NCBI GenBank assembly: GCA_009777615.1
Contig: WRLM01000002.1
Coordinates: 124,001-188,000, forward strand
Source of the DNA: Candidatus Methanoplasma cognatum
Lineage (GTDB): Archaea > Thermoplasmatota > Thermoplasmata > Methanomassiliicoccales > Methanomethylophilaceae
Direction: 5' to 3'
Length of the DNA: 64,000 nucleotides
Both the position numbers and the translations under genes were made by a program. Positions 43,330 through 52,853 of this stretch are shown one piece after another (within the stretch, counting starts at the first letter, position 1; each line of letters opens with the position of its first letter). The notes under the pieces are model-generated. The model was not told where the DNA came from, searched no databases, and worked only from the letters and a program-made list of their open reading frames with translations.

Positions 43330-44448
43330 ATGGATAGAAAAGAGCTTCTTGGAGAGGTTGAGAGGATCGTTATAAAAGTGGGGACCACAACGATCACCAA
43401 GGGCAGTTCGATGGCTTCTAAGGAAATGATGGATTCTATAGCCAGGCAGGTCAAGGAGCTTAAGGATGGGGGGAAAGAGGTCCTCATCGTGACATCAGGA
43501 GCGATCGGAATAGGGCTCAATGTAATGGGTGTTAAACCGCATCCAAGTGACATCCCTCTAAGACAGGCGGCATCGTCCGTCGGTCAAAGCATCTTGATGC
43601 AAAAATGGAACGAAAGCTTCCAAGAATATGGCCTCACAGTAGCGCAGATATTGCTTACGATGGATATATATTCTGACAGGGACAGTGTTCTTAATCTTAA
43701 CAATACGGTAGATGTGCTATTATCACACAACATTGTGCCAGTGTTCAATGAGAATGATGCAGTATCGATCAAAGAGATAGACGCGGTGTTCGGGGACAAC
43801 GACACTTTATCCGCATTGGTGGCCAGCAGGATGGATGCAGACCTTCTCCTTATACTGTCCGATGTAGAGGGACTATATGACAGGAATCCAAAGAAGTATG
43901 ACGATGCAAAGTTCATATCGGTCGTTACCGAGGTCACGAAAGAGATAGAGGATATGGCAGGGGACCCCGTCACAGGTTTGGGTGTCGGCGGGATGAAAAC
44001 GAAGATCAAGGCCGCAAAGATCTGCAAGGATGCAGGGTGCAGGATGATAATAGCATCAAGCGAGGTCGACAATGTGATAGGAAAGGCGATCAGTGGCGAA
44101 GAGGCCGGTACACTATTCATTTCGGATATGCACATCGGTAAGAAACGCCGTTGGCTGAAGACCGCTCGTTCCTATGGCGTCATTATGGTCGACGAAGGCG
44201 CGTGCAAAGCCATACTGGGGCACAGGTCCCTTCTTCCTGCGGGCATAACTGAGGTCCAAGGCAATTTCAGCAGAGGGGATGTCGTAAGCATCTGCCACAA
44301 TGGAGCGGTCGTTGCAAAGGGAACTCCTCAGTATGATTCCGTAGAGATACAGAAGATAAAGGGAAAGCACAGCAGCAGTATCAAGGACACACTAGGTCAC
44401 GCAATGAAGTCGGCCGTGATATTGAGCGAGGACATGGTGATCTTATGA
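43330..44448 (+). CDS. proB: Glutamate 5-kinase
   Basis: ATP-dependent phosphorylation of glutamate, first step of proline synthesis. The amino-acid kinase domain has VIKVGTTTITKG, IVTSGAIGIGLNVMG, NENDAVSIKEIDAVFGDNDTLSALVA and GTGVGGMKTK-type GLGVGGMKTKIKAAKI; residues 280-365 form a PUA domain. ATG 43330 gives the usual N-terminus; GTG 43321 overlaps the proA stop and is the alternative. The 3' end overlaps the convergent methylase gene by six bases. No proC is in the window. Confidence 0.94.
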   Translation: MDRKELLGEVERIVIKVGTTTITKGSSMASKEMMDSIARQVKELKDGGKEVLIVTSGAIGIGLNVMGVKPHPSDIPLRQAASSVGQSILMQKWNESFQEYGLTVAQILLTMDIYSDRDSVLNLNNTVDVLLSHNIVPVFNENDAVSIKEIDAVFGDNDTLSALVASRMDADLLLILSDVEGLYDRNPKKYDDAKFISVVTEVTKEIEDMAGDPVTGLGVGGMKTKIKAAKICKDAGCRMIIASSEVDNVIGKAISGEEAGTLFISDMHIGKKRRWLKTARSYGVIMVDEGACKAILGHRSLLPAGITEVQGNFSRGDVVSICHNGAVVAKGTPQYDSVEIQKIKGKHSSSIKDTLGHAMKSAVILSEDMVIL

Positions 44449-45654
44449 GGGCCCCTTTACAATCGAATCAATCTCGATGAGTCTTCTTCCCATTTTTTCC
44501 ACCAGCGGCACGACCAATGCGTTCCCCATTACGAAGTACCTGAATCTCTCAGGCATAGCCTTCGTCCAATCATCATCGAAACCGTTGATCCTTTCACACT
44601 CAATTGGAGTAAGGATGCGGTATCCGCCAGTATCGTCTTTGATGATATGGGAACTTCTGTTGACTGTGCCCTCACTTGTCAACATGGTACGTGCCGGTCT
44701 GTCTAGATGGTCCGGGAATGCCATGCTCCCCTCGGAATAGCTGTATTTTATCCCATCCTTACTGACCCTTTCTAGCTTTTTTGACCCCTTCAGTTCCTTC
44801 CATTTGCTGGTGTCAGCAACATAGTATTCCTTATCGACCGTTTCCTCAAGTATCTCACTGAGGGTCCCTATAGCCCCGTTATATTCGGGAAGGCACTCTC
44901 TTGTGTAAACGTGATAAGACCTCATTATCCCCCCGTTGTAGAGGTGTTCTGCAAAGTCATTAGAGATGTCGGCCAACGAGGGGTATCTCGTCTTTCCAAT
45001 GAAGAATGAAGCGGACCTCTTCGGGTCTGGTCTTTTCATTGGGAATTCTTTAGCAAAGAAACCATCGGTGCTGAGCAGTCTCTTCCTGTCGGCCCCCCGA
45101 ATACGTTTATAGTAATCTGTGCCCTTGTGATATGCGAATATGAACACACGGCGTCTTCTTTGAGAGAAACCATACTCTGCTGCGTTGATCACTCTCCATT
45201 CCACGTCATATCCTTTCTCCGCAAGACATCGCAGTATGATGCCGAAATCCCTGCCCCTCTGGCCCGCAGGCGAGCGAGTCAGTCTGTCAACATTCTCCAG
45301 CAAGATATATTTGGGGCGCTTTTTGTCGATGATGTAATCAATATGCCACCAAAGGACACCTTTTTTCCCCTCTATTCCCTTTGCCTGCGTTCGTGCTACA
45401 GAATAGTCCTGACATGGGAAGCCGCCTACTAAAAGATCATGGTCCCTTACGTTCTCCCTTGCGATGCCCACGTCCTCATTGACATGGAATTCGGAGATGC
45501 CATAGTGCTGCTGATAGCAATCGAATGCGTATTGGGATTTGCTCCCAGGCTCCCACTGATTAGACCATACTATCTCAAACTTAGAGGATGCCCTCTCCAG
45601 ACCAAGGCGGAACCCGCCCACTCCTGCGAACAACTCCACGACACGCATCCTCAT
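44443..45654 (-). CDS. DNA (cytosine-5) methyltransferase
   Basis: Type II m5C methylase, 403 residues. Motif I is VVELFAGVGGFRLGLE, motif IV GGFPCQDYSVA with catalytic Cys 81, motif VI LLENVDRL (about 120), motif VIII QRRRRVFIFA, and motif X-like MGNALVVPLVEKMG at the C-terminus. The variable target-recognition region (about 190-330) decides specificity, which I cannot read. It is followed upstream on the same strand by vsr and a BglII-type endonuclease, i.e. a complete R-M-V cassette. Confidence 0.95.
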   Translation of the reverse strand: MRMRVVELFAGVGGFRLGLERASSKFEIVWSNQWEPGSKSQYAFDCYQQHYGISEFHVNEDVGIARENVRDHDLLVGGFPCQDYSVARTQAKGIEGKKGVLWWHIDYIIDKKRPKYILLENVDRLTRSPAGQRGRDFGIILRCLAEKGYDVEWRVINAAEYGFSQRRRRVFIFAYHKGTDYYKRIRGADRKRLLSTDGFFAKEFPMKRPDPKRSASFFIGKTRYPSLADISNDFAEHLYNGGIMRSYHVYTRECLPEYNGAIGTLSEILEETVDKEYYVADTSKWKELKGSKKLERVSKDGIKYSYSEGSMAFPDHLDRPARTMLTSEGTVNRSSHIIKDDTGGYRILTPIECERINGFDDDWTKAMPERFRYFVMGNALVVPLVEKMGRRLIEIDSIVKGPS

Positions 45655-45724
45655 CCAACGCTACTACGCCCGACATCTAATTTAAGGTTGATTAAGAGGT
45701 CACCGAATGTACCCGAAAGTGAAC

Positions 45725-46171
45725 TCACCTTTCATTTAGGGTCGATAGTATCGTATCGACGATCGACTTTAAATTACTATTGATCCCACATTCCCAGACA
45801 GTAATGACGGCCCAGCCCTTTTCTTCGAGGAGAGCTGTCTTTATTCGATCCCTTTCTTTGTTCTTTTCGAACTTGTCACTCCAGAAATCAGTATTGCTTT
45901 TTGGGAGAGGTAGATTGCAATGGGGACATCTGTGCCAAAAACAGCCGTTCACGAATATGGCAATCTTTTTTCCCGGATAAGCTATGTCTGGCTTTCCAGG
46001 GACTTTCCATCGGAGCCTGTATCCTCCTGCTCCGTTCTCCTTGAGCGATTTCCGAAGCATCATCTCCGGCCCGGTGTCCTTCGATTTATTAGAGCTCATT
46101 ACTTTTGAGACTACTTCGTTCTTTGGAAGAGGAGAACGCTTGTCACGTACGTATGCGGTTCGTTTGGGCAT
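45725..46171 (-). CDS. vsr: Very short patch repair (Vsr) endonuclease
   Basis: Nicks 5' of T in T:G mismatches left by deamination of 5-methylcytosine. 148 residues from ATG 46171. Motifs: VMSSNKSKDTGPEMMLRKSL, YRLRWKVPGKPDIAYPGKKI (catalytic Asp in PDI), IFVNGCFWHRCPHC (His and zinc-binding Cys) and KGWAVITVWECGI. Pairs with the downstream m5C methylase. Confidence 0.94.
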   Translation of the reverse strand: MPKRTAYVRDKRSPLPKNEVVSKVMSSNKSKDTGPEMMLRKSLKENGAGGYRLRWKVPGKPDIAYPGKKIAIFVNGCFWHRCPHCNLPLPKSNTDFWSDKFEKNKERDRIKTALLEEKGWAVITVWECGINSNLKSIVDTILSTLNER

Positions 46172-46209
46172 ATAATAAGGTCCTTTGTTATCGATTTTTC
46201 TCCATATTA

Positions 46210-46854
46210 TCACAGTTTATACTGAGAAACTTTGTTCATAATAATAGTGGGGGGCGTTGTGCCCGCCCTCGGTTCGATGTAAAATGTCTCGGGGCCCTCT
46301 ATACCAACAATCATCAGTGGAACGCTTATTATATTGCTAAAAGGCAGAAGATAGTCTAAGAATTTTTCATATGTTCCTACCGCGCTATCGAAGTTACCCT
46401 TATCCTTTAAGTCGTTAGTTGCAGTTATGATCACTCCGGCTGAGGTCTGAATGGCCTTCCTGACGTGATTGAGTTGACTCGATAATACAGGTTTCATAAG
46501 GTTCCATGCCGTAGCCTCTCCATGGTTGAAGGCAACCTCTATGGCAATGAGGTCCTTTGAGAAATCAAGCGTCCACTTGGTGCCCCTCTCACTCAAATAG
46601 CGAGAATCGTTGAATATTGGACTCTGTCTGTTCCAGCCTCTTTTGACCAGTCGCTCATCGATCAATCGGTTAATCGGCTCAGACAGACTTTTTTTCCTAG
46701 ATCTTTTTACCTCTTCGTATTTCCTAATAAGGTCTTGATCCGTTATGCTCTCAATGACCTTTGTTACGTCCTCCCAAAGTCCAAGATAGGCAGGGTCGTT
46801 CTCAAATATAACTCTGGCATCTCTGAAGGAATGTAGCCTATATCTCAATAGCAC
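46210..46854 (-). CDS. Type II restriction endonuclease, BglII/BstYI family
   Basis: About 214 residues. LDFSKDLIAIEVAFNHGEA closely follows the DFxKDRxAIEVxF active-site strand of BstYI/BglII enzymes, with later matches in VGTYEKFLDYLLPFSNIISVPL. That family cuts GATC-centred sites (for example RGATCY or AGATCT), but the exact site cannot be stated. Reading the frame further upstream runs through the tRNA-Val gene, so the start must lie after it: GTG 46854 or TTG 46848 are candidates. No strong promoter separates it from the tRNA, so read-through from the tRNA is possible. Confidence 0.82.
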   Translation of the reverse strand: MLLRYRLHSFRDARVIFENDPAYLGLWEDVTKVIESITDQDLIRKYEEVKRSRKKSLSEPINRLIDERLVKRGWNRQSPIFNDSRYLSERGTKWTLDFSKDLIAIEVAFNHGEATAWNLMKPVLSSQLNHVRKAIQTSAGVIITATNDLKDKGNFDSAVGTYEKFLDYLLPFSNIISVPLMIVGIEGPETFYIEPRAGTTPPTIIMNKVSQYKL

Positions 46855-46907
46855 ACCATATGATAAAACGATCCGTCTGGTTAATATTCTTATTGTAATG
46901 ATAATGG

Positions 46908-46980
46908 TGGGCCCGGCCGGATTTGAACCGGCGACCTCCGCCATGTCAAGGCGACGTCATAACCCCTAGACCACGAGCCC
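46908..46980 (-). tRNA. tRNA-Val (anticodon GAC)
   Basis: Minus-strand cloverleaf: acceptor GGGCTCG/CGGGCCC, anticodon loop CTTGACATG with GAC, T arm GCCGG-TTCAAAT-CCGGC, discriminator A, and CCA encoded at 46905-46907. Reads GUC/GUU codons. Its 3' end is about 50 bases from the restriction gene. Confidence 0.93.
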
Positions 46981-47077: not shown

Positions 47078-48217
47078 TTAGAGTGGTAAATCACAGGCCA
47101 TCATCATTTTGGTAGATGTCGAGGTTTCTCTCTTACGTTCCTCTAATCTGAAAGCTTCATCAAAAGACCCAGCCTTTTTGAATTTTTGGACTAAAGCAGA
47201 ATATGGTGGAAAGCTCCCCCCAAACCCTATTACTCTTCTAGCTTTTGCAACAGCCTCCAGCTGGTTTGGTTTCCACAACGGAGACACGAATTCGTTTTTT
47301 GTCTTTGTGTTGAACGGCACAAACCGCATGGGATATGTAACGCAACCCAAATCCATTATGTCGATAACTCGCTCGTAAAATTCTTCGGGCGTGTCGTAGA
47401 AATCACTTTCGTAATCATAGAAGTTGTATAGCGCATAAAATGAGATTCGCCTTCTATCAAAACCAGCCGAATCAAGCATTCTCACGGCTCTGTGTACTGC
47501 TTTTTTTTCATGTAGTCCATCATATGCCATTCGCATGTCTCTGATTTTAAGCTCTGAGAGTGCTTTCGCTTTTTCCTCCGTCATCAACCTTGCATCGAGA
47601 CCCTGATTAAAATCAACTGTTTTGTTCAATGGTGCAAGCTTGTCCAGTTTATTTTTCCAATCAGGGAGAGCAAGAAAATTATTGTCCCATATGATGATGT
47701 TCTTATGTTCAGGGTGTACATGGAATGATGGGTCAAGGAGAACATTTCTAAGGTCACCCTCCATCGTTGGTACCATACAAAATGGACACTTGTTTATACA
47801 GCCGCGGGATGTAAATAATATCGACCCATCCCACCCTTTCCACTTTTCTATGGTTTTTAGTATGTCATAGTTTGGCATAAATTTTTCGGCCTGAGCATTG
47901 AGGCCTTTATGAATTTTCACATATGGATACTCAGTAGTTATTTCATCAGGAAGAAGCGATGCATATATTCCCCCAACATGTATTTCTGCATCAGGAAATT
48001 GTTTGTGATAGAATTCTATTGCTTGATGGACAGGTTTCCATGCATATGTGAAAAGCGATGTTATTTCTATTCGGTTCGGTACCATGTCTGTTATGACAAC
48101 CGTACCTCTTACCATCTTAACATTATCTGCCAACGCAAGATAATGTGAAGCGAGCTTCATAAGCCCCAATGGAGGGTAGCGCGAGTAATATGAAGGTTCC
48201 ACAAGCAAAATGTTCAT
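47078..48217 (-). CDS. Radical SAM protein with B12-binding-like N-terminal domain
   Basis: 379 residues. The N-terminus (NILLVEPSYYSRYPPLGLMKLASHYL...AEIHVGGIYASLLPDEI) resembles the Rossmann cobalamin-binding domain of class B radical SAM enzymes, though no clear DxHxxG cobalt ligand is seen. The 4Fe-4S motif is SRGCINKCPFCMVP (CxxxCxxC, about 136-143), followed by barrel strands (VDFNQGLDARLMT, RMAYDGL, ISFYALYNF). It is not viperin-like. Its ATG overlaps the stop of the GHKL ATPase gene (ATGA), so both are made together. AT-rich and flanked by defence genes; substrate unknown. Confidence 0.85.
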   Translation of the reverse strand: MNILLVEPSYYSRYPPLGLMKLASHYLALADNVKMVRGTVVITDMVPNRIEITSLFTYAWKPVHQAIEFYHKQFPDAEIHVGGIYASLLPDEITTEYPYVKIHKGLNAQAEKFMPNYDILKTIEKWKGWDGSILFTSRGCINKCPFCMVPTMEGDLRNVLLDPSFHVHPEHKNIIIWDNNFLALPDWKNKLDKLAPLNKTVDFNQGLDARLMTEEKAKALSELKIRDMRMAYDGLHEKKAVHRAVRMLDSAGFDRRRISFYALYNFYDYESDFYDTPEEFYERVIDIMDLGCVTYPMRFVPFNTKTKNEFVSPLWKPNQLEAVAKARRVIGFGGSFPPYSALVQKFKKAGSFDEAFRLEERKRETSTSTKMMMACDLPL

Positions 48218-50043
48218 GGACTTCCCTTGCCATTATTATTTTTTGCAAGATATTTTATTGTCTCTTGGATGAAACAACATCCCCTATAATCCGTAGCGAT
48301 TCCTTCTAGTCTTTCGCTACTAATTGCACATGTGCCGGGGATATGAACGACACTGCTCAATGCAGACAGCATATCTACTTGTAAAAGTTGCCTATATGCG
48401 TCTCTGTGGTTAGAGTTTATTTTGCCGCGAAATGGACCATTGTTATCCAAAATCGCGCTTTTAAGTCTACTCTCAGCCCCTCTGATATTTTTACGAAAAG
48501 AGGCATCATCCCACAATCCTGCTGATTCAAGCATCCCTTCTATGCAAAGCGAATATGCGGTTCTTAATAGACAAGCTGATGCGAGAGGATATCGAGAATA
48601 GGCTCTACCTTTCGATAAATGTTTAAGTTCTTCTGCGACACGGATAATGCCATTTTGAACGTTGTCTGTATTATCCAAACCAGCCCATTTAAGTGTCCCA
48701 AAGAATTTATCTGGTCTTGGGTCCATAGCTACGCTGAGTGCTTTTTCAGAACTTTTGACAACCAATCCATCGAGCAAATCTTCTTGTCTTTTTTTCTCAG
48801 CGATAACTTCATCTAGTACAGGCCGAATATCATTTTCATAATCGCCAGGTAAATTTTTTATATCTTTCCATTTTTTTCTTATGGAACGAGCTTTTTCTTT
48901 TGCGGAATCATCATGTCCCTCTTCTAATAGAATTTCTATTTTATCGATATTATTTTTTTGAAGCAACCCTGATGTTAAGTATGCAAGTGGATTGAGGCCT
49001 TTGTTTATGAATTCTCCTACAGAATCCATTAGATGCATAGTTTTTATTCCCGAGACCTCGAGCCCATCTCTTCCTGCATCTTCTATTATTTCGGGATCGA
49101 GTATATGAATTTCACCATATTGCCATTCCTTGAAGCTTTTCGCCATCCTTGTGACCAAGGTTTTGTCGCCAACTCTCACTCCATGTTTACGGTAGTGAAT
49201 GCCGAATTGGTTTATTTTCAATTTATTATTGCTATTAGTAGAAACAAACCAGCCTACTGCGAGAGCGGGAGCACTTACGTCTTCAACTTTTAATTTACCA
49301 TTGGTCATCATTGGCCTAAACTCTTTAAATATAAGATCATCGAATATTCCATTTGAACTTTGTGGGTCTCGTTTTATCTCATCTCCATTGACAAAAATTT
49401 TTGAACTTGAAATGATAATGTCATAGGCTGAGAGTCTGCTCTTTATTTTTTCTGCAAGGATAAAATCGTCATTAAACTCAAGTGGCATCGTACCTTCGAG
49501 GTATCTTGATATGCTGTCTGCTGAGAACATATTGAAAAGAGGAGGATATATTCCAGATAGCGTAATTTTTGTATATGCTCTAGAATCATCCTCTGGCGTT
49601 TGAGGTAGCTCTTCAATCTCCCCCGGAACTGCTTCTGTCAGTGCGTCTATTATTGATCGATTACGATCTATTCTAACCAACGGCTCACAAGAAATGGAAA
49701 CGTGTAGCTTGGACCCATCTTTTTTTTTCGTTACTACATCAATATTTTTACATATAGCCGCACCACTCCATATGCCAATCCCTCTCCATCCTATGTTATT
49801 CTTCCCTTTGAATGAAATCCCCACACGAAGGGCGCCCTCCAACTCTTCAAAGGTCATGCCAACTCCGTTGTCCAGTATACTTACCGATGCGCCATCATTT
49901 AGAGCATCTATCCATATTTTTTTCGCTGACCCATCGATGGCATTTTGCACATACTCTCTAATGCAATTTAGATTGTTGGCATAAAGTCCTGAGGTAATCA
50001 CTTCCATAATAGATGAACCTATATCTGCCCCATCAAACTTCAT
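48214..50043 (-). CDS. GHKL (HSP90-like) ATPase, candidate defence protein
   Basis: 609 residues. The Bergerat ATP site is complete: N box LNCIREYVQNAIDGS (about 25-40), DNGVGM (about 57) and GWRGIGIWSGA (about 84). Residues 100-330 resemble the transducer part of HSP90/MutL/MORC proteins. The C-terminal 200 residues are helical; RYPLASACLLRTAYSLCIEG and the later SSVVHIPG resemble helical C-terminal modules that accompany other defence ATPases (inference). It has a TATA box (TTTATATAG on the minus strand, near 50085-50094) and is the first gene of a two-gene unit with a radical SAM protein. Composition is AT-rich. Confidence 0.85.
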   Translation of the reverse strand: MKFDGADIGSSIMEVITSGLYANNLNCIREYVQNAIDGSAKKIWIDALNDGASVSILDNGVGMTFEELEGALRVGISFKGKNNIGWRGIGIWSGAAICKNIDVVTKKKDGSKLHVSISCEPLVRIDRNRSIIDALTEAVPGEIEELPQTPEDDSRAYTKITLSGIYPPLFNMFSADSISRYLEGTMPLEFNDDFILAEKIKSRLSAYDIIISSSKIFVNGDEIKRDPQSSNGIFDDLIFKEFRPMMTNGKLKVEDVSAPALAVGWFVSTNSNNKLKINQFGIHYRKHGVRVGDKTLVTRMAKSFKEWQYGEIHILDPEIIEDAGRDGLEVSGIKTMHLMDSVGEFINKGLNPLAYLTSGLLQKNNIDKIEILLEEGHDDSAKEKARSIRKKWKDIKNLPGDYENDIRPVLDEVIAEKKRQEDLLDGLVVKSSEKALSVAMDPRPDKFFGTLKWAGLDNTDNVQNGIIRVAEELKHLSKGRAYSRYPLASACLLRTAYSLCIEGMLESAGLWDDASFRKNIRGAESRLKSAILDNNGPFRGKINSNHRDAYRQLLQVDMLSALSSVVHIPGTCAISSERLEGIATDYRGCCFIQETIKYLAKNNNGKGSP

Positions 50044-50267
50044 TTTTTCAACCCGTTTACAGTAGGTAATAGGGGGGTTTTTACTATATAAAGGGGTTCT
50101 TGATTATGTGCAGACGTCCATTCTCATGAATGTCCGCCACAGTGAGCGATAAAAGTGCTCACAAAGTAGGCGCACTGTAAATCTTCAACACAAATATTCG
50201 GATATTTCTGACCGGAAATCATGCAATAATACAAAAAATCAAAAACAAAGACTCCCCTCCATATATC
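50044..50267. promoter_or_regulatory. Divergent promoter region of the GHKL and Mrr-like genes
   Basis: A near-palindromic CTATATAAAG at 50085-50094 can serve the minus-strand GHKL gene about 45 bases before its ATG. An imperfect inverted repeat (GACGTCCATTC / GAATGTCCGCC region, 50111-50140) lies in the middle. The plus-strand gene lacks a clear TATA; AT-rich sequence at 50227-50250 is the likely site. Confidence 0.45.
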
Positions 50268-51476
50268 ATGAAGACTCTCTACACGGAAGGTCTCGACAGC
50301 GAAGGGTTCGTAAAACTATGTGAGGATATCTTCTCAGCTTTCTACAAATCAAAAACAAAACGTTCATTCCTTTTCGACGACGGCAACACCGACTTTGTTG
50401 TCCTAAGCAATAACAACATCGCCGTCGACTGCAAACATCCCGCCAAAGCCCCGGTGGGAAAGCCCGCCGTGGAGAAGTTCTCTCTCGCCATGAAAAAGAA
50501 AAAGGTGAAGGAAGGCATCATCGTAACATCCGGTCGCTTCGCGTCCACCGCTCAGAAATACATCGACGAGAACAATCTCCCCGTCACTCTGATGGATCTT
50601 GAAAGACTCGCTGCGATCGCGTTCAAGGCTGGCATAAAATTAGTTTACAAGAAAGAAGAGCCCGAAGCCTTCACTATAATATCCAACAGCGACAGGGAGT
50701 TCAAGGAACACCTCGCCAAAAAACTGAAACAGGATCTCCAGTGTTCAGAAGAGATAGGTCTGAACCTATCGATCAAGAGAAGGGACATATCGCTCGTATT
50801 ATTCTACAAGATCGATTACAGAGTGGACGCCGAGTTCACCGCATCCGGTAAAGTCATACACAAGGAGACGGGAGAAGGTTCCTTCTACGTCAGCGAGAGA
50901 ACGGGGAAGATCGAAGGAGAGGATTTCGCAAAGGTCTATGACATGGCCCCGAGGATGGCCTACGATCCGGAAGGAAAGGACGCGGCCCTCCTGAAGCCGA
51001 GGAAGCAGATATTGGACGCCCTGTACGATCGCGTGCAGGACGCCCACACCAAGTACGTTCCGTATATGGCCAAACCCGATAAACTCAGCACGAAGACCTG
51101 CTCCCCGTCGAAGAAGGACATCACCATCCAGAACATCATGTGCCTGTACCTCCCGTTATCTGACGTTGAATACGAAATGTTCGGAAAGAGCAGGACCATC
51201 CGGTCGCTGGAGAGCAGCTCGGCGGAGTTCAGCGTCATTGAACCAAAAGCATACAGTTGCGACATATGCGGCGGAAAGATCGCAAAGGACGGCGCCGTAT
51301 GCGTCAAATGCGGTAACGTGACCGACGGAAAACACGGCGTGCGCTGCAGCCGGTGCAGCAAGACCCTGTGCACAAATTGCGCCCTAGCCATCAGTAAATT
51401 CCTTGGAAAGAAGGAACCGATCTGCGGCGAATGCGCGAACAAAGAGCCGGGTCTGAAGATAAAGGATTACAAGTGA
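50268..51476 (+). CDS. Mrr-like endonuclease-fold protein with C-terminal zinc ribbons
   Basis: 402 residues. The first 110 follow the Mrr/DUF2034 restriction-nuclease fold: FVKLCEDIFSAFY helix, NTDFVVLSNNNIAVDCKHPAK (Asp...Asp-x-Lys in place of the usual Asp...Gln/Glu-x-Lys), GIIVTSGRFASTAQKYI and the ITLMD-type VTLMDLERLA. The middle (150-320) is unassigned. The C-terminus holds two or three zinc ribbons (CDICGGKI, CVKCGNV, CSRCSKTLCTNC, CGEC). Codon use is like the core genome. An eroded copy of its zinc-ribbon end lies at 52949-53046. Confidence 0.75.
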   Translation: MKTLYTEGLDSEGFVKLCEDIFSAFYKSKTKRSFLFDDGNTDFVVLSNNNIAVDCKHPAKAPVGKPAVEKFSLAMKKKKVKEGIIVTSGRFASTAQKYIDENNLPVTLMDLERLAAIAFKAGIKLVYKKEEPEAFTIISNSDREFKEHLAKKLKQDLQCSEEIGLNLSIKRRDISLVLFYKIDYRVDAEFTASGKVIHKETGEGSFYVSERTGKIEGEDFAKVYDMAPRMAYDPEGKDAALLKPRKQILDALYDRVQDAHTKYVPYMAKPDKLSTKTCSPSKKDITIQNIMCLYLPLSDVEYEMFGKSRTIRSLESSSAEFSVIEPKAYSCDICGGKIAKDGAVCVKCGNVTDGKHGVRCSRCSKTLCTNCALAISKFLGKKEPICGECANKEPGLKIKDYK

Positions 51477-51551: not shown

Positions 51552-52853
51552 TCACATGTCGTCAAGGGAAAGTATCCTGAATTCGACGTCGAACCCTTTC
51601 AACCCGTAAACTGTTTCGGATTTTTCCCTGAGTTTATGGACATCTGCTTTTTTAGGATCGCGTTTCACTTCCGCCACTACAGCTTTCATGTTCATATCGT
51701 TCACGGCAATGATGTCGATCTCGTTCTGCCCTTTCCTGTCCCAATATGATCCTATGCTCGTCAGTCTTTCCTCCTCGGACATCTTCTCTTTGAAGTAATT
51801 CTCAAGCACAAATCCGCTGTATTGCGAATAATCGCTTTCTATCATCTCTTTCAAAAGACCATATTCGCCCCTCTCTATGAGCGACCGGTTTCCGCCGATG
51901 AATCTGAAGTAAAATCTCATGTAGTTGTCCGAGATGTGCCATCTGATACCCCTGCTGTTCTCTTTGGAAAAGATCGGTTTGTTCCTTGTTATAAGATTAT
52001 ACTCCTTCTCCAGGTTATCCAGGTATGAAATTGATTCCTTTCCTATCGCATCGTTTATCTCTCGGAGGGTATTATTTCCGGTAGCGATCAATTCCAGGAT
52101 CGAATAATATGTTCCGTAATCCTTTCCGAACTCGGATATGAGAAGATCCCTCCCTTCGGTTAAGAACAGAGAATTCGGGCGGCAGATGCGTTCCAGCATC
52201 TTATCAAAAGAGGTCGCTCCAGCATCCATCAGCAGTTCGATGTACATGGGGACGCCCCCGGTTACCATGTAGAGGAAGAGCAGATCATCCGGAGAATATT
52301 CGGGATTGTGATCTTTGAGTATTCTTTTCACCACGCTTGGTTTGAAGGGACGGATGTTGAACTTTGAAGTGGCTCTGCCGAAAAGCGGTTCTTTGTATCT
52401 GTCGAAGATCCTGACCATCATCGAGTATATGGATCCGCTGACTATCAGATTCACCATGGATGCGGATCTATACGCATCCCAATGTTTCTGTATGCTGCTC
52501 GTTATGGATTTATCGGCCCTGTCTAATTCCTGGAATTCATCTATCACGAAGGTGAAGTTGTTCTTTGTACCGTATTCCATCAGCTCTTCGAAAAGGTCGC
52601 TGAAGCTGTCGCCTGATATTTTTATACCCAAGTATTTTTTTGTGTCCCTGATCAGCTCTTTACAGAGCATCGCTTCGCTTTTGCGTTCTGCGAAGAAATA
52701 AAGGAAGCTGTTTCCCTTTTCGGACTCCAGTATCAGCGCAGTTTTGCCTATGCGTCTTCTTCCTGTTATCACTGTGAAAGTGCCGCCTTTTTTTGACATT
52801 TCGCGAGTCTCTTTGAGGATCTCCAGCTCTGTCTCTCTGTCATAGAATTTCAT
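51552..52853 (-). CDS. Archaeal AAA ATPase with DUF234 nuclease-like C-terminus
   Basis: 433 residues starting FYDRETELEIL. STAND-like archaeal ATPase: Walker A VITGRRRIGKTALIL (about 32), Walker B TFVIDEFQEL (about 110), sensor-type LIVSGSIYSMM, then a winged helix (LREINDAIGKESISYLDNLEKEYNLI). The C-terminal DUF234 domain has SYWDRKGQNEIDIIAVND...AVVAEVKRD, the Glu/Asp/Glu-x-Lys pattern of PD-(D/E)XK nucleases. Function of this expanded archaeal family is unknown. Start ATG 52853 fits a promoter at 52884-52922 with two palindromes over the transcription start, suggesting autoregulation. Flanking tandem palindromes and neighbouring gene debris suggest it arrived as a cassette. Confidence 0.86.
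   Translation of the reverse strand: MKFYDRETELEILKETREMSKKGGTFTVITGRRRIGKTALILESEKGNSFLYFFAERKSEAMLCKELIRDTKKYLGIKISGDSFSDLFEELMEYGTKNNFTFVIDEFQELDRADKSITSSIQKHWDAYRSASMVNLIVSGSIYSMMVRIFDRYKEPLFGRATSKFNIRPFKPSVVKRILKDHNPEYSPDDLLFLYMVTGGVPMYIELLMDAGATSFDKMLERICRPNSLFLTEGRDLLISEFGKDYGTYYSILELIATGNNTLREINDAIGKESISYLDNLEKEYNLITRNKPIFSKENSRGIRWHISDNYMRFYFRFIGGNRSLIERGEYGLLKEMIESDYSQYSGFVLENYFKEKMSEEERLTSIGSYWDRKGQNEIDIIAVNDMNMKAVVAEVKRDPKKADVHKLREKSETVYGLKGFDVEFRILSLDDM

Follow-up and report, generated by a model that had tools for sequence, protein, structure and literature searches.

In the window (the whole 64,000-nucleotide stretch of DNA analyzed here, from the gut-type methanogen Candidatus Methanoplasma cognatum), a GHKL ATPase and a radical SAM enzyme (rSAM) are encoded by two overlapping genes that belong to a widespread and apparently undescribed pair. 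Relatives with intact active sites recur across phyla and stand beside four types of restriction-type effector module, C5/N6 methylases are missing from nearly all of the DISARM-like loci, and viruses carry lone copies of the rSAM. With modest confidence, we favor the reading that the pair is the modification or self-marking core of a modular, modification-based defense family and that the viral copies serve self-protection.

The GHKL gene comes first and the rSAM gene follows on the same strand, with the four-base overlap that an earlier, sequence-only reading had described and that is likely to couple their translation (Table 1). By eye, a TATA-box-like TTTATATA of archaeal type was located at promoter-like distance before the GHKL start; in line with that reading, it is a putative single promoter for both genes, none being needed between them. 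The pair is AT-rich, as stated before (GC 0.39–0.40 across 47–50 kb, vs. ~0.54 in the flanks), and sits in an AT-rich defense island. A divergent Mrr_cat nuclease with a zinc ribbon lies upstream; downstream, beyond a tRNA-Val gene that marks the boundary and is outside the system, are a BglII-like restriction enzyme, a Vsr nuclease and a C5 methylase, which make up a separate restriction-modification (R-M) cassette. The position given for the pair, between an R-M cassette and an Mrr-like nuclease, was accurate. Membership of the pair in the R-M cassette or in an Mrr system was rejected because neither is conserved beside relatives; the Mrr_cat nuclease is a possible local effector, although none adjoined the pair in its relatives. 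Insertion mediated by the tRNA was also rejected, as no repeat of tRNA-Val of ≥18 bp was present within the window.

Table 1. Positions of the gene pair, its promoter element and surrounding genes in the window
Feature	Position	Strand	Basis or remark
GHKL (Bergerat-fold) ATPase, 609 aa	48214..50043	-	ORF, Pfam, fold, conserved motifs
Radical SAM enzyme (rSAM), 379 aa, phrog_9298 family	47078..48217	-	ORF, motif, fold
Start/stop overlap of GHKL and rSAM genes, 4 bp	48214..48217	-	ORF coordinates
TATA-box-like TTTATATA (50092-50085), 5′ of GHKL start	50085..50092	-	by eye; putative promoter
tRNA-Val, 3′ flank of the pair	46905..46980	-	
Mrr_cat nuclease with zinc ribbon	50268..51476	+	
R-M cassette: C5 methylase, Vsr nuclease, BglII-like restriction enzyme	44443..46944	-	behind tRNA-Val
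Reverse transcriptase-nitrilase, 1032 aa	38834..41932	+	PADLOC
AAA_21 + DUF4435 protein, 646 aa	29978..31918	+	
ATPase_2/DUF234 AAA protein	51552..52853	-	

Elsewhere in the window, the reverse transcriptase-nitrilase is of the UG5 kind (PADLOC RT_UG5-nitrilase, E 5e-215), adjoins tRNA-Ser and is a candidate antiviral reverse transcriptase in an archaeon. The AAA_21 + DUF4435 protein, AT-rich and inserted beside a thermosome gene, resembles an OLD/PARIS-type defense ATPase, and the ATPase_2/DUF234 protein strongly matches PDC-S27 (E 3.5e-41), a candidate single-gene defense family.

The GHKL protein matches Pfam HATPase_c_3 (E=3e-12) and has Bergerat motifs N, G1 and G2 together with an S5 domain, which place it in the GHKL superfamily. 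Its active-site residues (E30, N34, D58, G60, G62 and G85-x-R-G-x-G90) are kept in ≥30 of 34 homologues, in agreement with its earlier description as a complete Bergerat-fold ATPase. The N-terminal ATPase and S5-like domains gave an Hsp90/TRAP1 fold match (fold search, E 5e-14); the AF2 model, with a pLDDT of 71.8, is moderate in quality. From about residue 430 the C-terminal region is helical and divergent, differs from that of its own clade and gave no match in Pfam, plasmids or the PDB. Weak matches were found to a MORC3 structure (6e-05) and to the BbrUII/HgiDII restriction enzyme (1e-08). Like the MORC/paraMORC restriction GHKL proteins (Iyer 2008, PMC2292703), the family combines GHKL with an S5 fold and appears to share helicase, nuclease and methylase neighborhoods; unlike them, its constant partner is the rSAM, and the word "radical" is absent from PMC2292703. 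Within the host's family, further GHKL matches were weak, involved the N-terminal domain and were rejected as relatives of the pair.

The rSAM has the CxxxCxxC motif (C140/C144/C147) within a TIM barrel, which defines the radical SAM superfamily; the motif, correctly recognized in the sequence-only reading, is invariant in 54 of 54 homologues and supplies the sole conserved Cys columns among them. Matches to Pfam were marginal only (3e-4), vs. E 1e-61 for phrog_9298. In the AF2 model (pLDDT 94.7) a short Rossmann-like front domain precedes the barrel, and the nearest solved folds (fold search) were a MtaB methylthiotransferase model, AprD4 and B12-dependent TokK, so that the front domain, as modeled, appears B12-binding-like in fold, as had been claimed. 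In AprD4, one of the two best experimental matches, the cobalamin-binding-type front domain is vestigial, so that the rSAM may or may not bind B12. Searching the rSAM profile against the PDB gave few weak matches, MiaB/RimO methylthiotransferases among them; identity as a methylthiotransferase (MiaB/RimO/MtaB) was rejected because three conserved Cys allow no second (UPF0004) Fe-S cluster. PPR matches in the PDB search were rejected as well, since they look compositional and no single stretch passes alone.

Single-sequence searches returned no GHKL match in genome contigs and no rSAM match in viral contigs, and a seven-sequence alignment was needed to detect relatives. The profile made from it was run over 84,980 species genomes and found at least 541 rSAM relatives, of which the best 80 were retained and the rSAM ORF recovered in 78. 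Among these 78 loci (best 80 of at least 541), which come from about 20 phyla, a GHKL gene is immediately adjacent to the rSAM gene in 44, co-directional in 43 of the 44, in both gene orders (31 and 13) and separated by ≤20 bp in 35 of the 44. Within the same best 80 of at least 541, GHKL-partnered rSAM genes occur in more than 10 phyla, and carriers include Methanobacteriota, Thermoplasmatota, Bacillota, Acidobacteriota, Chloroflexota, Thermodesulfobacteriota, Nitrospirota, Bacteroidota, Planctomycetota, Verrucomicrobiota, Myxococcota and Pseudomonadota. The constant part of the family is the rSAM, not the ATPase, GHKL being missing from some effector-linked rSAM loci (best 80 of at least 541). 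Alphaproteobacterial plasmids have a DGQHR-rSAM-GHKL arrangement, a human-gut contig brings together NurA-like, HerA-like, GHKL and rSAM genes, and in Marinitoga camini virus 1 a 44%-identical rSAM adjoins HerA/NurA. Near the DGQHR-rSAM-GHKL operon, the alphaproteobacterial plasmids also carry a second GHKL gene paired with a PIN_8 protein (L003 1-2419, L004 1435-4988, L014 4209-7653), possibly a further GHKL-based system.

Effector modules were found by clustering neighbors and by family scans of the 78 loci. At least one of four restriction-type modules is present in 46 of the 78, and 13 of the 78 have no partner or effector (best 80 of at least 541). The modules, again counted among the best 80 of at least 541, are DrmA + DrmB + NERD helicase (DISARM-like, 18 loci), ParB-like u340 + u136 + SNF2 helicase + u340 (14 loci), PbeA + PbeC + a small protein in the DndE position (9 loci) and a HerA/NurA-like module (5 loci), the names of which come from the Marinitoga virus annotation and a profile built on it, with no confirmation from Pfam. 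On a quick rSAM tree whose long viral branches are unsure, modules change frequently (7 changes for 9 carriers of Pbe, 8 for 18 of the DISARM-like module, 10 for 14 of ParB/SNF2 and 4 for 5 of HerA/NurA), as expected for exchangeable parts. Beside the rSAM, GHKL is sometimes substituted or accompanied by DGQHR proteins, which match DpdB/DndB and Pfam DndB; this likens the loci to Dnd/Dpd systems, from which they differ in that no other Dnd/Dpd modification protein was recognized and the SNF2 helicase is only DpdE/ZorD-like. Adjacency of homologues (44 of 78, 43 of 44 on the same strand) and defense-type neighbors (46 of 78) are both frequent (best 80 of at least 541), and the ATPase does not belong consistently to a single known system alongside different partners. 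The proposal that the pair is a defense system is strengthened by its pairing and its defense neighbors; the local R-M cassette and Mrr nuclease, on which it had also drawn, are not conserved partners.

In the u340-u136-SNF2-u340 module, which has no PADLOC name, two ParB_N-like paralogues flank the DpdE/ZorD-like helicase; the arrangement is conserved in L032, L034, L051, L061, L062, L065, L081, L085, L088 and L095 and is also found on plasmids L005 and L014. Clostridial DISARM-like loci (L055, L066, L069, L071, L077, L079, L086, L087, L102) add a UvrD-type helicase, a NERD helicase resembling the RT-associated NERD-Hel family and an extra protein of 330-550 aa, which in L086 gave a bactofilin-like match.

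Canonical DISARM combines DrmA, DrmB and DrmC with a methylase. As in DISARM, DrmA (PADLOC E 2e-171) and DrmB (5e-58) are present, in Clostridia and archaea within the same operon as the rSAM pair; unlike in DISARM, rSAM + GHKL (or DGQHR) replace the C5/N6_Mtase methylase (DrmMI/DrmMII) in 16 of 18 DISARM-like loci. In these 16 genomes no PF00145 (C5) or PF02384 (N6_Mtase) was found on the rSAM contig, in a scan that covered these two families alone and included some short contigs; in the two exceptions an N6_Mtase gene lies ~6 kb from the rSAM and a 74-aa methylase fragment ~19 kb away. Like PbeABCD and CxC ABC-ATPase-DndE systems, other loci have PbeA (E 5e-222), PbeC (E 5e-174) and, where DndE (PbeD) would be expected, a small protein, all adjoining the rSAM. 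Pbe systems frequently come with Dnd or methylase genes, and no rSAM gene is given for them, radical SAM being mentioned for DndC only (PMC10853773). The relatives here differ from PbeABCD in this respect: when the Pbe-type loci were scanned for motifs, no DndC-like PP-loop and no C5-methylase motif turned up, and the one N6-type match falls within a GHKL gene. Because nearly all DISARM-like loci have no C5/N6 methylase and the Pbe-type loci no such motifs, the rSAM holds the place of a modification enzyme. Against a marking role for the rSAM, the HerA/NurA-like locus L033 does contain an N6 methylase; in favor of it, the rSAM gene adjoins DNA methylases in a phage and in an archaeal plasmid, and the fold of the enzyme is closest to those of a methylthiotransferase and a B12 rSAM methylase.

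Viruses of Methanomassiliicoccales, the likely order of the window host, carry distant rSAM copies of the same enzyme family, phrog_9298; viral copies of the family are mostly without GHKL and effectors. A partner or effector accompanies 3 of 34 viral rSAM loci; among genome loci flanked by ≥6 kb on each side, drawn from the best 80 of at least 541, the figure is 28 of 34 (Fisher p=7e-10). The contrast is not purely a host/virus effect because retrieval patterns differ slightly and viral copies are on average more distant. By analogy with orphan phage methylases, a lone viral rSAM would fit self-marking; it would fit other virus-specific roles too.

In the mechanism that we infer, the rSAM would use radical chemistry to mark host DNA, and its partner, the GHKL protein or a DndB/DpdB-like DGQHR protein, would draw on ATP to open or clamp the DNA, to position it or to link marking to restriction. 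The interchangeable modules (DrmA/B + helicases, PbeA/PbeC/DndE-like, ParB-like + SNF2, or HerA/NurA-like) would attack unmarked DNA, and viruses bearing the rSAM alone would mark their own genomes and escape. The fuller claim, that these loci represent a new epigenetic self-marking class in which the rSAM and a GHKL/DndB-like ATPase make a novel DNA mark used by all four effector types and stolen by viruses, is tentative and falls just short of probable.

The sequence-only reading had suggested inducible synthesis or modification of a nucleotide, RNA or peptide, a suggestion that fares less well than DNA modification because the rSAM fills the DISARM/Pbe modification slot and occurs alone in viruses. 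One form of it would make the pair an induced effector or signaling arm, in which the GHKL protein senses infection and the rSAM makes a toxic or signaling nucleotide in the manner of viperin. The Hsp90-like GHKL fold would suit a conformational switch, viperins are rSAM enzymes that are antiviral via a nucleotide analogue (PMC12926258), and no other effectors accompany the window pair. We nevertheless consider this improbable: across the family the rSAM occurs with four unrelated nuclease/helicase modules, each an effector in its own right, its lone presence in viruses would be odd for a toxin-maker, and no sequence link to viperin was seen, its weak PDB profile matches including MiaB/RimO. 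Those same matches, with the MtaB model as best fold match and a tRNA gene adjoining the window pair, speak for an rSAM whose substrate is RNA (tRNA) or a partner protein, for example as a methylthiotransferase-like enzyme countering tRNA-cleaving viruses. This is less likely again, since the three conserved Cys leave no second cluster, the partners are DNA machines (DrmA/B, PbeC, DndB-like) and a tRNA gene was present in 3 of 11 archaeal or related loci scanned, two of them lone-rSAM loci and the other, L192, with the tRNA >7 kb from the pair.

How the window copy itself acts is the weakest link in the self-marking reading, because no effector module adjoins the pair. In the quick tree the window rSAM groups with GHKL-partnered archaeal copies (L024-L031) in a clade that has support; of these, L025 has Pbe genes and L029 DISARM genes. 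No effector module was recognized in the window or in five of its closest paired relatives (L024, L026, L028, L031 and L192), with flanks of ≤10 kb, several of them contig-limited; the window, unlike DISARM, is itself without Drm genes and has no DrmA + DrmB core. A host-encoded Pbe, DISARM or HerA/NurA effector acting in trans was rejected: the host genome gave no PbeC, only one weak stray match to DrmA (E 8e-4) and no HerA of the rSAM-linked kind (a query that had no positive control). The window copy may therefore be an orphan or use the Mrr nuclease. Lowest of the alternatives we rank the possibility that it is an orphan or decaying remnant on a mobile island, comparable to an orphan methylase and devoid of its own defense activity. 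Among 17 genomes of the genus a single one has it, its nearest relative, L023 (67–68% identity), retains the rSAM without GHKL, no effector is adjacent and the GHKL C-terminus has diverged; yet both frames are intact, the active sites are conserved, the 4-bp coupling is retained, and in L192, from another member of the order, the pair is retained close to an integrase-like gene. The window pair may still work in the proposed way, as a self-marking core, despite having no adjacent effector module.

PADLOC 2.0 gave no match for the rSAM and only weak GHKL-domain matches for the ATPase (E 2e-4 or worse), and the open-licence literature searched yielded no paper that links an rSAM with GHKL, DISARM, Pbe or DGQHR as parts of a defense system, although a description elsewhere is possible; within these sources, the assertion that no named anti-phage system has the pair is correct. 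Prokaryotic DNA carries self/non-self marks in the form of base methylation, phosphorothioation and 7-deazaguanine. An rSAM in the modification slot points to a further DNA mark, which standard methylation callers may miss. Such a mark would explain DISARM- and Pbe-type operons that have no methylase or Dnd genes, and the many unannotated viral phrog_9298 genes would become candidate anti-restriction genes.
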